DNA of 64,000 nt from Argopecten irradians. Taxonomy: Eukaryota; Mollusca; Bivalvia; Pectinida; Pectinidae. Shown in pieces: positions 32,217-61,528 of the stretch; positions within the stretch are counted from its first letter, which is position 1, and each line of letters begins with the position of its first letter. The position numbers and the translations under genes were made by a program. Under the pieces are notes generated by a model that saw nothing but the letters and a program-made list of their open reading frames with translations, was not told where the DNA came from and made no database searches. The DNA is taken from positions 17,485,255-17,549,254 of the forward strand of contig NC_091138.1 in assembly GCF_041381155.1 (NCBI RefSeq), given 5' to 3'.

Positions 32217-35200
32217 ATGGAGGCGAGAGCCAAGCACGACTTCAAAGCCACGGCAGAAGACGAATTAAGCTTTTCAAAAGACGTAACATTGAAGGTTTGC
32301 AATTGCATTGTATTCGATTTTTAATTCCTTGCACAACATGATCATCTTTAGAACATTTACGTTTCTGATATTGCGAATTTTCGATTTTGTACTCCCAATA
32401 ATATGGGAAGATAATGTTTACGTCTGTCCCAAAATTTGGAAAGAGACTAGAGATATAGAAATATAATTCATGTCCTTATCATTTCTTCATTGTTGTAATG
32501 ATATGTAGAAAGAAATCATTGTGTTGTTTGTATCAGGTTCAGCGTGTTAATAAAGACCCGAGGATTAAAACGTCGTTATAACTACAAAATGCATGAATGA
32601 CTTTTTTTCGTCATCTTCTGTATGAGTCATGCACAAGATTTTTTTTTCTTTCTTTGAGTTAGGCCAAATAATGTGCATACTCCAGTTAGCTGGCAAAGAA
32701 AATGTTATATTTAAGATGAGTGTATTAGGATATCATCTGTCGGAACCATTTCCAATAGCGCTATATAATGTTTGCCTTTATCTCAGGATTATTTAGTTAT
32801 CATGATCATAGAAGGTTGACTTTTCTTGTCACGAATCATGACATCAGACACCATCGGTACACAACTAATAGGACAATATATACCTTTAGCAGTTGCAGAT
32901 GTATATGCAAATTTGATACAGCTGGTGTACGTAATAGAAGGGGAGAAAATGTCTCATGACCCGGACCTCCAGATTCTAGACACTATCACAGGGATCTGAG
33001 AATTAGTTACAGATTATATATTCATGGACCAGTCAGAGTGCCCTAAGACCATTTTTAGAATTTTAGAGCTCTAAATAAAAAAAAAAACACAATAAAAATC
33101 ATACTCTACATGGTACTATATACTTGCCACCCTTCTGGTATATAAAACCATGTAGAGTAGGAATTTTTTTACCGTTTTTTTTATCTAGAGCTCTAAAACG
33201 TCTAAAAATGGACTCATATGGTACTCCGGTGGGTCCATAAATATATAATCTGTGGCTAATTCTCAGATTCCTGTGGACACTATATGCTCTAAACCTGGTC
33301 ACTAATGATTGGCCCAGTTCAGTCCTGCTAGCCTACACTCAGTCTCCTCCCTCCTTTTTCAAAACCTCCACCCTCCAAGACACACAAGATGTGGGTATTA
33401 TATTATTTTGTTTGATGCCAATTGCAAGGCTGTAGCAGGAAAGGAGATAATGTGGTACCAGGGCTCAAATCTCGGATCTCTAAACATTATCCAAATGCTT
33501 TAACTATTGAAATATAGGTCCTTCATAGTAACCAATGATCAACCCAGTCCAGAGCCACTATACAGGCACTGATGAAACAGTCTCACTCTCTGCATCAAAA
33601 ATACGCAGTGACACTAGTTTAACTGCTGATAAGCTATAAAGAGAGTAATGAATTCCAATGAGTACATATAGTGTTCATAAAATAAAGATTATGAATTTCT
33701 ATGTGTCAGTTTAAAACTTGACGTATATCAATGCAAGTTATTGTTCATTCAGCTATTAATTGTCTAACAATGTTTTATTGTTAGATAACAGACACCAAAA
33801 AAGATGCCAACTGGTTCAAAGCAGAGATCTGTGGAAAGGAAGGGTTCATCCCAAACAATTACATTGAATGGAAAGCAGCTCCGTATGTATAGTAATATCA
33901 ATTCTTAACTTTTTAAAAAATTATTTTTGTGAATGCATTTGTTGAAACAAGGATTTATAAGTGAGAACCATTCTAACCTCTTGGCATCGAGGCCCCAAAT
34001 ATGTATATATAAAATTTTAAGACATTCAATCATATCATGTACATCAATTATCAAAGGTGAAATGTGTCATGAAATATTGGTATACTAGTATACCATAGCA
34101 CATTCACTTTGAGAATAAGTGAGATAATGATTTATATACATGTACCGGTATGTAATAATTTTTCAATTGATATGGGAAATAAAAATTATACTTGCCATAG
34201 TCTATTAGCTATAACATTAAAATGTAAAATTGTGTTTTAAAATTGAGACATTTCCTCTCAGATGGTACTTGGGGGATGTAAAAAGACTCCAGGCTGAAAA
34301 AATGTTGATACAGAAAGATGGCACTGGTGCATATATTCATCCTGATGGAGCTTTCCTAGTCCGAAACAGTGAGAGTCAACAAGGAGAGTTTTCTTTATCA
34401 GTGAAGTAAGTGTTGTCATGTTTGAAGACCTACATACAAATTTCAAAGCTACTGAACAGTTTTGTCGCTATCAGTACAGATATTCAGATTAATTTAGTAT
34501 TCAATTACTCAGAAAGTAGACTGAATTATCTCCCCTGGCCACCAGACCATTAGTTGTTGATAAGACTTTCTCAGGAGAGTTGTTTACTAGATTATCTCCC
34601 CCTAGCTTGAAACTTTAGAATCTGACATGTAGTAGAGACAAAAATAATTAATCAAGCAAAATTTTAGTGACTTTTTTTTTTTCAATATTCTAGAGACTGG
34701 TGGCCAGATTACTCTGAAAGTAGTACCAGCTATGACTGAATTAAGTTGATCATTAACACTGAGATCTCATTAAAACATTATATGGATTTTTCTCTTACAG
34801 AACAGGGGGAGATACTGTCCAGCATTTCAAAATATTACGAGATGGGCGTGGTAGCTATTTTCTTTGGGTGCAGAAATTTACATCCATCAATGCGCTTGTT
34901 GAAAACCACAGAAAAAAGTCCATCAGTCGTTCACAGGATATGGTTTTAAAGGATATGGTTCCAACAGAACAAGATGTAAGTATTTGATTAAGTAGTAGCT
35001 GGCCGGGTATTGCAGCCAGTATTAACCAGGGTTACAAAGTTATTTAAAGATGCACCATCGCTGACAGATCATAAAAAAATGTTTATCATTTGGGAAATAA
35101 TTAAAGTTTATTTGTGTACATATATATGTACTAATTATCACAAAAGTAGTATATGAAATTATTTGCATTGCTTTTGTTGTCTGCACAATCAGACAGTGCC

Positions 35201-36181
35201 TCAATCCATTTTTTTGTTTCGGGATGCAATTAATTACTTAAGATGTTTCTTTTCTGAATAATAATATGAAGCTCAAACTTTTAACTGATGGTTATAGTGT
35301 AAATTAATTAACTTTTGTAAATGAAGGAAAACACTTAATTCTTCTGATCCTGTATTATATAAATTAACATTTGTCAGGATGTTATTATAAGGGAAAAGAT
35401 ATTTGATCACTTTTTATAAAAATATTAAGACTGCATTTAGCTAAGGATCAACAAATCACTACCTGTTTGTTTTCTTAGAAGAAAGGTAAATATATGCACT
35501 GAAAAAACAAATTAATTTTTAAAATATATAAAAAATACTTTGCATTTCAGATGAAAGATGAAGTTCAGGTAAGAAACTTACTGTCTAATTGTTTTAGTTT
35601 CTTATCTATTTTAAATACTCTTCAAGCAAAGTAAACCCTAGTTGATATTCTTGTTGATATGTAGATATTAGTTTATACCTGTAATCAAATTTAAATGCAT
35701 TGATATTCAAACAATCTGTTCTTTTTATCTCTCGGATCTTTCAGTTGTTTTGATATGGTTATTCCGTTGAATTAGTAGTTTAAGTAATACACTTTGTACA
35801 TTTTAATGTTTATAACACATTAGTTATGAGAGAAATTCACATAAAATTTATAATTAGAATTACTTGGAACATTCATCAGTAGATAATTGCTTCACATAAT
35901 TTAATTTATAATGGCTTTTAATGTGTGATATTGATAACCATCTTATGAGGTACCAAAGTGATGTATAATGCATATTTGTTTATTATTCTGTGTCACAGCT
36001 GCGAGCCCTGTACGATTTCGAAGGACAGAATGATGATGAAATTTCATTCAAGAAAGGTGACATTATCATCAAGACTGGAGAAAACTGTTCAAATTGGTGG
36101 CGTGGTATACTGAGCGGATCACCTTGTAATAGGGACGGACTATTTCCTGCAGCATATGTATATGTTATGGATACTTTATAG
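32217..36181 (+). CDS. GRB2: GRB2-like adaptor A, SH3-SH2-SH3 (six exons, complete)
   Basis: Seen: exons 32217-32294, 33785-33882, 34262-34405, 34801-34975, 35551-35568 and 35999-36181 give 231 residues ending DTL and TAG. Acceptors are all AG and donors all GT; the first donor is the weak GTTTGC. Residues 1-58 form SH3 ([10 protein letters not shown]36, IPNNYIEW with P49 and N51 kept); 60 to about 160 form SH2 ([13 protein letters not shown] with the phosphotyrosine Arg at 93, and FLWVQKF with the Trp that gives GRB2 its pYxN preference); 172-231 form the second SH3 (LRALYDF, NWWRG). Known: GRB2 couples activated receptor tyrosine kinases to SOS and Ras at the membrane; human GRB2 has 217 residues. 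Odd: Tyr7 is His, seven residues are inserted before FLVR, and the second SH3 has FPAAY where GRB2 has FPRNY. An in-frame Met lies at 32133, but the family start is MEA. Orthology with GRB2 rather than another GRB2/GADS-type paralog is inferred. Confidence 0.92.
32987..33275. mobile_element. hAT-type MITE with perfect 8-bp target duplication
   Basis: The ends CACAGGGATCTGAGAATTAG and CTAATTCTCAGATTCCTGTG are inverted over about 35 bases, and most of the 289 bases fold back. GACACTAT lies directly outside both ends (32979-32986 and 33276-33283). An 8-base duplication is the mark of the hAT superfamily. It sits in intron 1 of GRB2-like A. Confidence 0.9.
33290..33620. repeat. Degenerate dispersed repeat in intron 1 of GRB2-like A
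   Basis: GGTCACTAATGATTGGCCCA here resembles GGTCACCAATGATTGTTCCA near 53698 in intron 1 of GRB2-like B. Other parts align only loosely. The identity is unknown. Confidence 0.4.
34535..34707. mobile_element. MITE of the CTGGCCACCAGACC family in intron 3 of GRB2-like A
   Basis: It begins CTGGCCACCAGACC and ends GACTGGTGGCCAG. The inside TTAGTTGTTGATAAGACTTT and AGATTATCTCCCCCTAG match the reverse strand of the element at 55664-55810. Confidence 0.8.
35044..35384 (-). mobile_element. MITE of the GATGCTCCACCGCTGAC family, copy 3 (older, reversed)
   Basis: It begins TTAAAGATGCACCATCGCTG, and inside runs in reverse relative to the copy at 60924 (TTTCGGGATGCAATTAATTA here against its complement there). 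The right terminal repeat is damaged. It lies in intron 4 of GRB2-like A. Confidence 0.72.
35551..35568 (+). CDS. GRB2: 18-base microexon of GRB2-like A
   Basis: Eighteen bases, reading MKDEVQ, lie between a TTTGCATTTCAG acceptor and a GTAAGA donor. The exon sits in phase 0 on both sides, in the linker between SH2 and the second SH3. It was placed by frame continuity between exons 4 and 6, which also join in frame without it, so inclusion is not proven by the sequence alone. Confidence 0.7.
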
Positions 36182-61291: not shown

Positions 61292-61450
61292 TTTCCTGTG
61301 GAATACATTCAAAGCTCAAAGCCTTAGTAAGAGTACTCTCAGGGCTAGTACAAGGCTACCTACACTTCAACCCTCCATCAAAGGGGAATAACTCTAAGTT
61401 ATAGTGATTACCTCCCCTAATGTTATTTCTTAAGAATTATTTTTTCCAAG

Positions 61451-61528
61451 ATGGAAGCTCGTGCTCTTCACGATTTCAGACCAACCAATTCCGATGAATT
61501 GGGGTTTTCGAAAGGAGACACACTATAC
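61451..61528 (+). CDS. GRB2: First exon of GRB2-like adaptor C (gene continues past the window)
   Basis: Seen: ATG at 61451 opens 26 codons beginning MEARALHDF and ending FSKGDTLY at a GTGAGT donor. The exon is the same length, phase and sequence type as exon 1 of the two other GRB2-like genes here, with His in place of Tyr7 as in paralog A. It encodes the first half of an N-terminal SH3 domain (ALYDF-type motif, then DELGFSKGD). No second exon with the expected NW...PxNY signature was found in the remaining 2.4 kb, so the rest of the gene should lie to the right. Read through, the frame stops at 61651, which fits an intron. Whether the gene is complete or a fragment cannot be seen here. Confidence 0.82.

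Follow-up and report, generated by a model that had tools for sequence, protein, structure and literature searches.

The adaptor GRB2, like its counterparts Drk and SEM-5, is a signaling hub, and many invertebrates have it as a single, slowly evolving gene. Its SH2 domain binds pYxN motifs, and its SH3 domains bind SOS and other proline-rich proteins. Vertebrates have three such SH3-SH2-SH3 adaptors, GRB2, GRAP, and GRAP2 (GADS), whose genes are dispersed in the genome. Here, we report three adjacent, diverged genes of this type (A, B, and C) in the scallop Argopecten irradians, found in and just to the right of a 64,000-nucleotide (nt) window (the whole stretch of DNA analyzed; C5:17485255-17549254). 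We think it likely that they form a tandem three-member GRB2 (Drk, SEM-5) family produced by old in-place duplications, with all three members probably serving as phosphotyrosine-to-SOS adaptors with divided roles.

The window was extended by flanks of 20 kb (left) and 30 kb (right) and searched with tblastn, and gene models were built by joining exons via GT-AG signals and reading frame. GT-AG borders are present at all 17 introns of A, B, and C, the splice sites having been chosen to fit them. Gene A (32217-36181, plus strand) has six coding exons and encodes 231 amino acids; gene B (55318-47827, minus strand) has seven exons and encodes 228 amino acids; and gene C (61451-80048, plus strand) has seven exons, six of them to the right of the window, and encodes 236 amino acids. 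All three read SH3-SH2-SH3 and are open throughout. An initial annotation, made from the window, had placed a cluster of such genes at these positions, with two genes head to head, a first exon of 26 codons in all three, and intron phases 0, 2, 2, 0 common to A and B, and had asked whether the third gene was whole beyond the window's right edge. The models bear this out: the start codons of B (minus) and C (plus) lie head to head 6,133 bp apart, coding exon 1 is 78 nt in each gene, the phases after exons 1 to 4 are also those of C, and C is complete, ending at position 80048 on the window scale. The proposed extent of 29 kb was too small, as 47.8 kb separate the A start codon from the C stop. 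Given the 6.1-kb spacing, B and C are unlikely to share a compact bidirectional promoter.

Pfam finds two SH3_1 stretches, one SH2 stretch, and no other domain in each protein. Human GRB2 is matched over the full length with E values down to 1e-64 by A and 1e-56 by C, and B scores 199 bits against it in a separate comparison; given the full-length E values and the common intron phases, the likeness to GRB2 is not due to chance. Domain order, length, the boundaries of the first SH2 exon, and the residues of the phosphotyrosine pocket and main SH3 groove are as in GRB2, Drk, and SEM-5. The scallop differs from these systems in having three adjacent copies that are 43 to 50% identical to human GRB2 (A, 50%; B, 48%; C, 43%), compared with 66% for Drk and 58% for SEM-5. 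Gene A differs further by a 6- to 8-residue insert in its SH2 domain, and B and C differ by a longer loop in the N-terminal SH3, a slightly longer C-terminal SH3 loop that reads RNTRTG, and two microexons each in the SH2-SH3 linker (24 and 27 nt in B, 18 and 45 nt in C), where A has one (18 nt). These microexons supply 6 linker residues in A, 17 in B, and 21 in C. A scan gave three linker microexon candidates for C, of which one of 57 nt (window scale 78482-78538) was discarded, the two retained resembling those of B.

A 23-base primer for the bay scallop PC4 gene, which PMC8328476 places on chromosome 15, has exactly one match in this assembly, on C15, with none for a control pattern, as expected of A. 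irradians or a very close relative; one of that paper's eight primers was searched. The 846-Mb assembly (1508 contigs) was searched with five protein queries (A, B, C, human GRB2, and fly Drk), and the top hits of all five were the three genes described here. No fourth SH3-SH2-SH3 locus was recognized in the assembly with these queries, weaker matches not having been inspected individually. Candidates for a fourth GRB2 were rejected on translation at C4:39637167 (SH3-SH2), C10:10524283, with two copies on C562 (SH3), and C8:736981, which we take to be Abl-like, endophilin-like, and Crk-like, respectively. The two C562 copies of the endophilin-like SH3 exon are inverted (1945-2109, plus; 36096-36260, minus) and are perhaps a haplotype or assembly duplicate. 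Pfam hits (42 SH2 and 71 SH3_1) were also screened for an SH3 within 50 kb of an SH2 on the same strand; the SH3 on the 3' side was used because the N-terminal SH3 is split in A and C and had escaped the Pfam model there. Besides A, B, and C, this screen returned just C8:736981 and C2:31090290-31092312, the latter with two SH2 hits followed by an SH3 and known from its Pfam hits without a translation. Near the cluster, dead partial copies were sought by tblastn over 114 kb; apart from the exons of the three genes and cross-matches among them, every hit had an E value of 0.17 or worse. A search for relatives in viral contigs gave 73 stretches that fitted a pattern, none of which was confirmed.

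A conservative GRB2 orthologue might instead lie elsewhere in the scallop and be missing from the assembly, in which case A would be a derived extra copy. An oyster GRB2 is reported to match rat GRB2 at 1e-83 (PMC5772385), and by a rough calculation with an assumed database size, A would score about 2e-55 and Drk about 6e-76. The excess of unique change in A over Drk (40 versus 12, P = 1e-4) points the same way. Against this, none of the five queries turned up such a gene in any of the 1508 contigs, and the HPDG insert of the oyster gene is present in A. An Ostrea lurida GRB2 primer (PMC5772385) reads NFVHPD and then GG, which fits the A insert AYIHPDG; the other seven proteins that we aligned are without the insert, although C retains PDG. 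This short match is the sole direct indication that A represents the bivalve GRB2. A second oyster primer (EVDCNW), which cannot distinguish A and B, was set aside. As the search scores just its best candidates and the assembly may have a gap, a conservative GRB2 elsewhere is unlikely rather than impossible, and we consider a missing orthologue to be a decidedly weaker account than a family made up of the three genes found.

The sequences themselves argue for an old expansion. BLASTP identities are 55% (B-C), 38% (A-B), and 40% (A-C), and synonymous divergence (dS) between B and C is saturated, in keeping with the initial view that the duplications are not recent. The local expansion of GRB2-type adaptors proposed at the same time likewise stands: the recognized GRB2-type loci are all at this locus, they have intron phases in common, and B and C pair with full support. 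In an unrooted tree of eight proteins (A, B, C, human GRB2, GRAP, GADS, Drk, and SEM-5), the B/C branch (100/100) is the sole starred one of five inner branches, and none of the scallop proteins falls with GRAP or GADS. Over 205 gap-free columns of the eight proteins, 17 residues are exclusive to B and C, compared with a maximum of 6 for any other of the 28 pairs. Among the 56 triples, A with human GRB2 and Drk comes top with 6 exclusive residues, and A therefore retains GRB2/Drk character; the trio A, B, and C comes second with 4. The comparison suggests a common origin of A, B, and C.

In the history that we favor, A would be an ordinary GRB2 descendant that evolves fast, an old in-place duplication would have given A and the ancestor of B and C, and that ancestor would later have duplicated with an inversion, leaving the head-to-head pair. 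In-place duplication is the simplest account because the genes share both their position and their intron phases. Relative rates were counted against human GRB2 as the outgroup, on the assumption (which the tree does not demonstrate for B and C) that the scallop proteins lie closer to Drk or SEM-5 than does human GRB2. The counts gave more unique changes than in Drk not only for A but also for B (50 versus 16, P = 3e-5) and C (59 versus 17, P = 1e-6). The excess over SEM-5 was weaker (A, 37 versus 22, P = 0.05; B, 37 versus 18, P = 0.01; C, 44 versus 16, P = 3e-4), and the rate of A did not differ significantly from that of B (27 versus 34, P = 0.37) or C (22 versus 36, P = 0.07).

Alternatively, B and C could be an ancient second adaptor family that split from GRB2 before the molluscs, stayed adjacent to it, and was lost elsewhere. 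The one strongly supported branch does separate B and C from A, GRB2, GRAP, GADS, Drk, and SEM-5, and B-C identity is about as low as that between A and the human protein. However, that branch shows the pairing of B and C alone, since an unrooted tree does not put the pair outside, and the large excess of unique change in B and C over Drk can make the pair seem older than it is. The genes are adjacent and have identical intron phases, which favors in-place duplication, and a clade of A, B, and C is not rejected. The initial annotation had considered that the three genes might belong to separate ancient families lying together by chance; that outcome was not seen, in that the joint clade survives the tree tests, which do not prove it either. 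We regard an ancient second family as unlikely, if the most credible of the alternatives considered here.

Several observations weigh against a tandem family with conserved adaptor function. In the tree, A joins Drk with weak support (45/70) instead of B and C; constraining A, B, and C to one clade costs 0.79 log units (approximately unbiased test, p-AU = 0.41), so that the clade is merely not rejected; and the tree is limited by long branches and by just five references, four of them entered by hand. The microexons of all three genes were identified by splice signals and frame alone. The C-terminal SH3, the domain least similar to human GRB2 in each protein, has low identity to it (A, 20/57; B, 24/55; C, 18/57), and given also that 8 of its 14 listed positions are not identical in all three, its partners may differ. 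None of A, B, and C retains the dimer tyrosine Y160, which Drk, SEM-5, GRAP, and GADS also lack.

Elsewhere in the proteins, the residues on which GRB2 depends are retained. Mutation of W36, P49, R86, E89, S90, W193, or G203 is reported to inactivate GRB2 (PMC10968029), and all seven are identical in the three scallop proteins. Positions 139, 162, and 209 of the mutant table in that paper were left out because the stated residues conflict with the human sequence used (S, Q, and Y there). Over 39 listed GRB2 positions, 28 are identical in all three proteins, comprising 14/14 in the SH2, 8/11 in the N-terminal SH3, and 6/14 in the C-terminal SH3. The phosphotyrosine pocket (R67, R86, S88, S90, S96, and K109) and the pYxN tryptophan W121 are unchanged throughout, as are the SH3 ligand sites W36, P49, W193, and G203; the roles in SH2 binding of R67, S88, S96, K109, and W121 are those that we take them to have in GRB2. 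Variable SH3 positions include Y7 (H in A and C), N51 (T in C), and N208 (A in A).

This bears on whether B or C, or both, might be degenerating or unexpressed copies. Gene C has large introns with minisatellites, and its last acceptor lies inside a 62-bp tandem array in which three decoy acceptors are followed by stops. Yet neither gene has a stop or frameshift over 228 (B) and 236 (C) codons, and a dead gene would not keep its frame and the seven inactivation sites intact while silent sites became saturated. The initial annotation had held that B or C proving to be remnants would overturn the expansion; no remnant is visible, and we judge degeneration very unlikely. B and C differ at 0.33, 0.26, and 0.59 of first, second, and third codon positions, with a nonsynonymous divergence (dN) of 0.35 and dS saturated, a pattern expected under long purifying selection; of the 45 four-fold sites common to both, 27 differ. 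Recent gene conversion was rejected as third codon positions differ widely (no formal test was run).

With their binding pockets intact, A, B, and C should all act as adaptors. Under the tandem-family model, the SH2 domain of each protein would dock on receptors and scaffolds at pYxN-type phosphotyrosine sites, and its pair of SH3 domains would bring proline-rich partners such as SOS, coupling receptors to Ras. From the sequences, we infer that all three are probably expressed, bind SOS, and have divided roles. The divergence of the C-terminal SH3 domains and the greater linker length in B and C suggest other second partners or a different reach, and B and C are likely to differ from A in both.

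A further shared feature concerns exon 3. The human GRB2 exon 4 printed in PMC9519967 is 123 nt long, starts and ends in phase 2, and has its edges at the same codons and in the same phase as scallop exon 3; just the edges were used because the exon as printed and the Protein Data Bank sequence disagree at a few residues. Skipping of this exon gives GRB3-3, an inhibitory form of human GRB2 (PMC9519967 and PMC10968029), and exon 3 of A, B, and C corresponds to the exon skipped there. Its removal leaves all three genes in frame without an internal stop (183, 186, and 194 amino acids for A, B, and C), so skipping may be a regulatory option common to the three. At the other end of gene C, the last-exon acceptor and the first bases of that exon form the end of the 62-bp tandem array (L011:5673-5889; window scale 79673-79889). 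Each of the three copies upstream has an acceptor of its own and reads into stop codons, so that splicing to them would yield a C protein without the last SH3.

As vertebrates also have three such adaptors per genome, some with a lengthened linker between the SH2 and the C-terminal SH3, several copies are not new in kind. The scallop genes differ from the vertebrate trio in being tandem neighbors, and none has the very long linker of GADS, which exceeds 100 residues in the sequence used compared with 6, 17, and 21. No report of a bivalve or molluscan GRB2 duplication is among the literature matches listed, a coverage that most subscription journals fall outside, and the accessible parts of PMC9416634, PMC9524096, and PMC7260276 contain nothing on scallop GRB2 copies. 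As far as those matches go, an adjacent, fast-evolving bivalve trio without a slow copy found is new, and the novelty is one of family history, not mechanism.

Feature coordinates are collected in Table 1. Around the cluster, an exon of a TGF-beta/BMP-type ligand (PF00019, 1.3e-36) lies about 41 kb to the left of gene A (L009:584-1324; window scale -9416 to -8676). Large minisatellite arrays occupy window positions 7768-10817, 14220-15861, 22953-24733, and 43322-44925, with units of 36, 31, 36/29, and 145 bp, respectively, and some of the arrays are open in several frames and resemble long open reading frames. Introns 1 and 2 of gene C (window scale 64573-70379, L010) consist largely of repetitive open frames on both strands, with several kilobases of apparent minisatellite. 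Between A and B, a 161-amino-acid open frame (41171-41653, minus strand) looks like the tail of a reverse transcriptase of the long interspersed nuclear element type; Pfam gave no match.

Table 1. Coding exons of the three GRB2-type genes (window positions unless a right-flank piece, L010 or L011, is named)
Feature	Position	Strand	Remarks
Gene A exon 1: start codon, first half of N-terminal SH3	32217..32294	+	26 codons, phase 0
Gene A exon 2: remainder of N-terminal SH3	33785..33882	+	ends in phase 2
Gene A exon 3: first SH2 part, FLVR arginine, A-type insert AYIHPDG	34262..34405	+	144 nt, phase 2-2, skippable in frame
Gene A exon 4: remainder of SH2, specificity tryptophan (FLW)	34801..34975	+	
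Gene A exon 5: 18-nt linker microexon (MKDEVQ)	35551..35568	+	picked by eye (splice signals, frame)
Gene A exon 6: C-terminal SH3, stop	35999..36181	+	
Gene B exon 1: start codon, first half of N-terminal SH3	55241..55318	-	26 codons, phase 0
Gene B exon 2: remainder of N-terminal SH3	53322..53428	-	
Gene B exon 3: first SH2 part	51683..51808	-	126 nt, phase 2-2, skippable in frame
Gene B exon 4: remainder of SH2	50683..50842	-	
Gene B exon 5: 24-nt linker microexon (GSQQQQQQ)	50032..50055	-	picked by eye (splice signals, frame)
Gene B exon 6: 27-nt linker microexon (RPVKKTLEK)	48543..48569	-	picked by eye (splice signals, frame)
Gene B exon 7: C-terminal SH3, stop	47827..47991	-	
Gene C exon 1	61451..61528	+	26 codons, phase 0
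Gene C exons 2-6 (right flank)	L010 3174-3283, 6576-6701, 7642-7801, 8110-8127, 8434-8478	+	
Gene C exon 7 (right flank)	L011 5875-6048	+	end = window scale 80048

The usually strongly conserved GRB2 switch may thus be split in this scallop among three fast-changing versions. It is possible, though we hold this only tentatively, that scallops dropped the single conserved GRB2 and conduct receptor-to-Ras signaling with three diverged adaptors of one locus, with A remaining general and B and C being specialized or competing forms through different C-terminal SH3 partners and longer linkers. If true, the subdivision among A, B, and C would be a natural test of whether the GRB2 hub can be divided, and a lineage with three intact, fast copies and no slow one found would show that it can be, offering a natural setting in which its receptor, Ras, and other roles could be told apart. 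Bivalve work that measures one "GRB2" transcript may track one adaptor of several.

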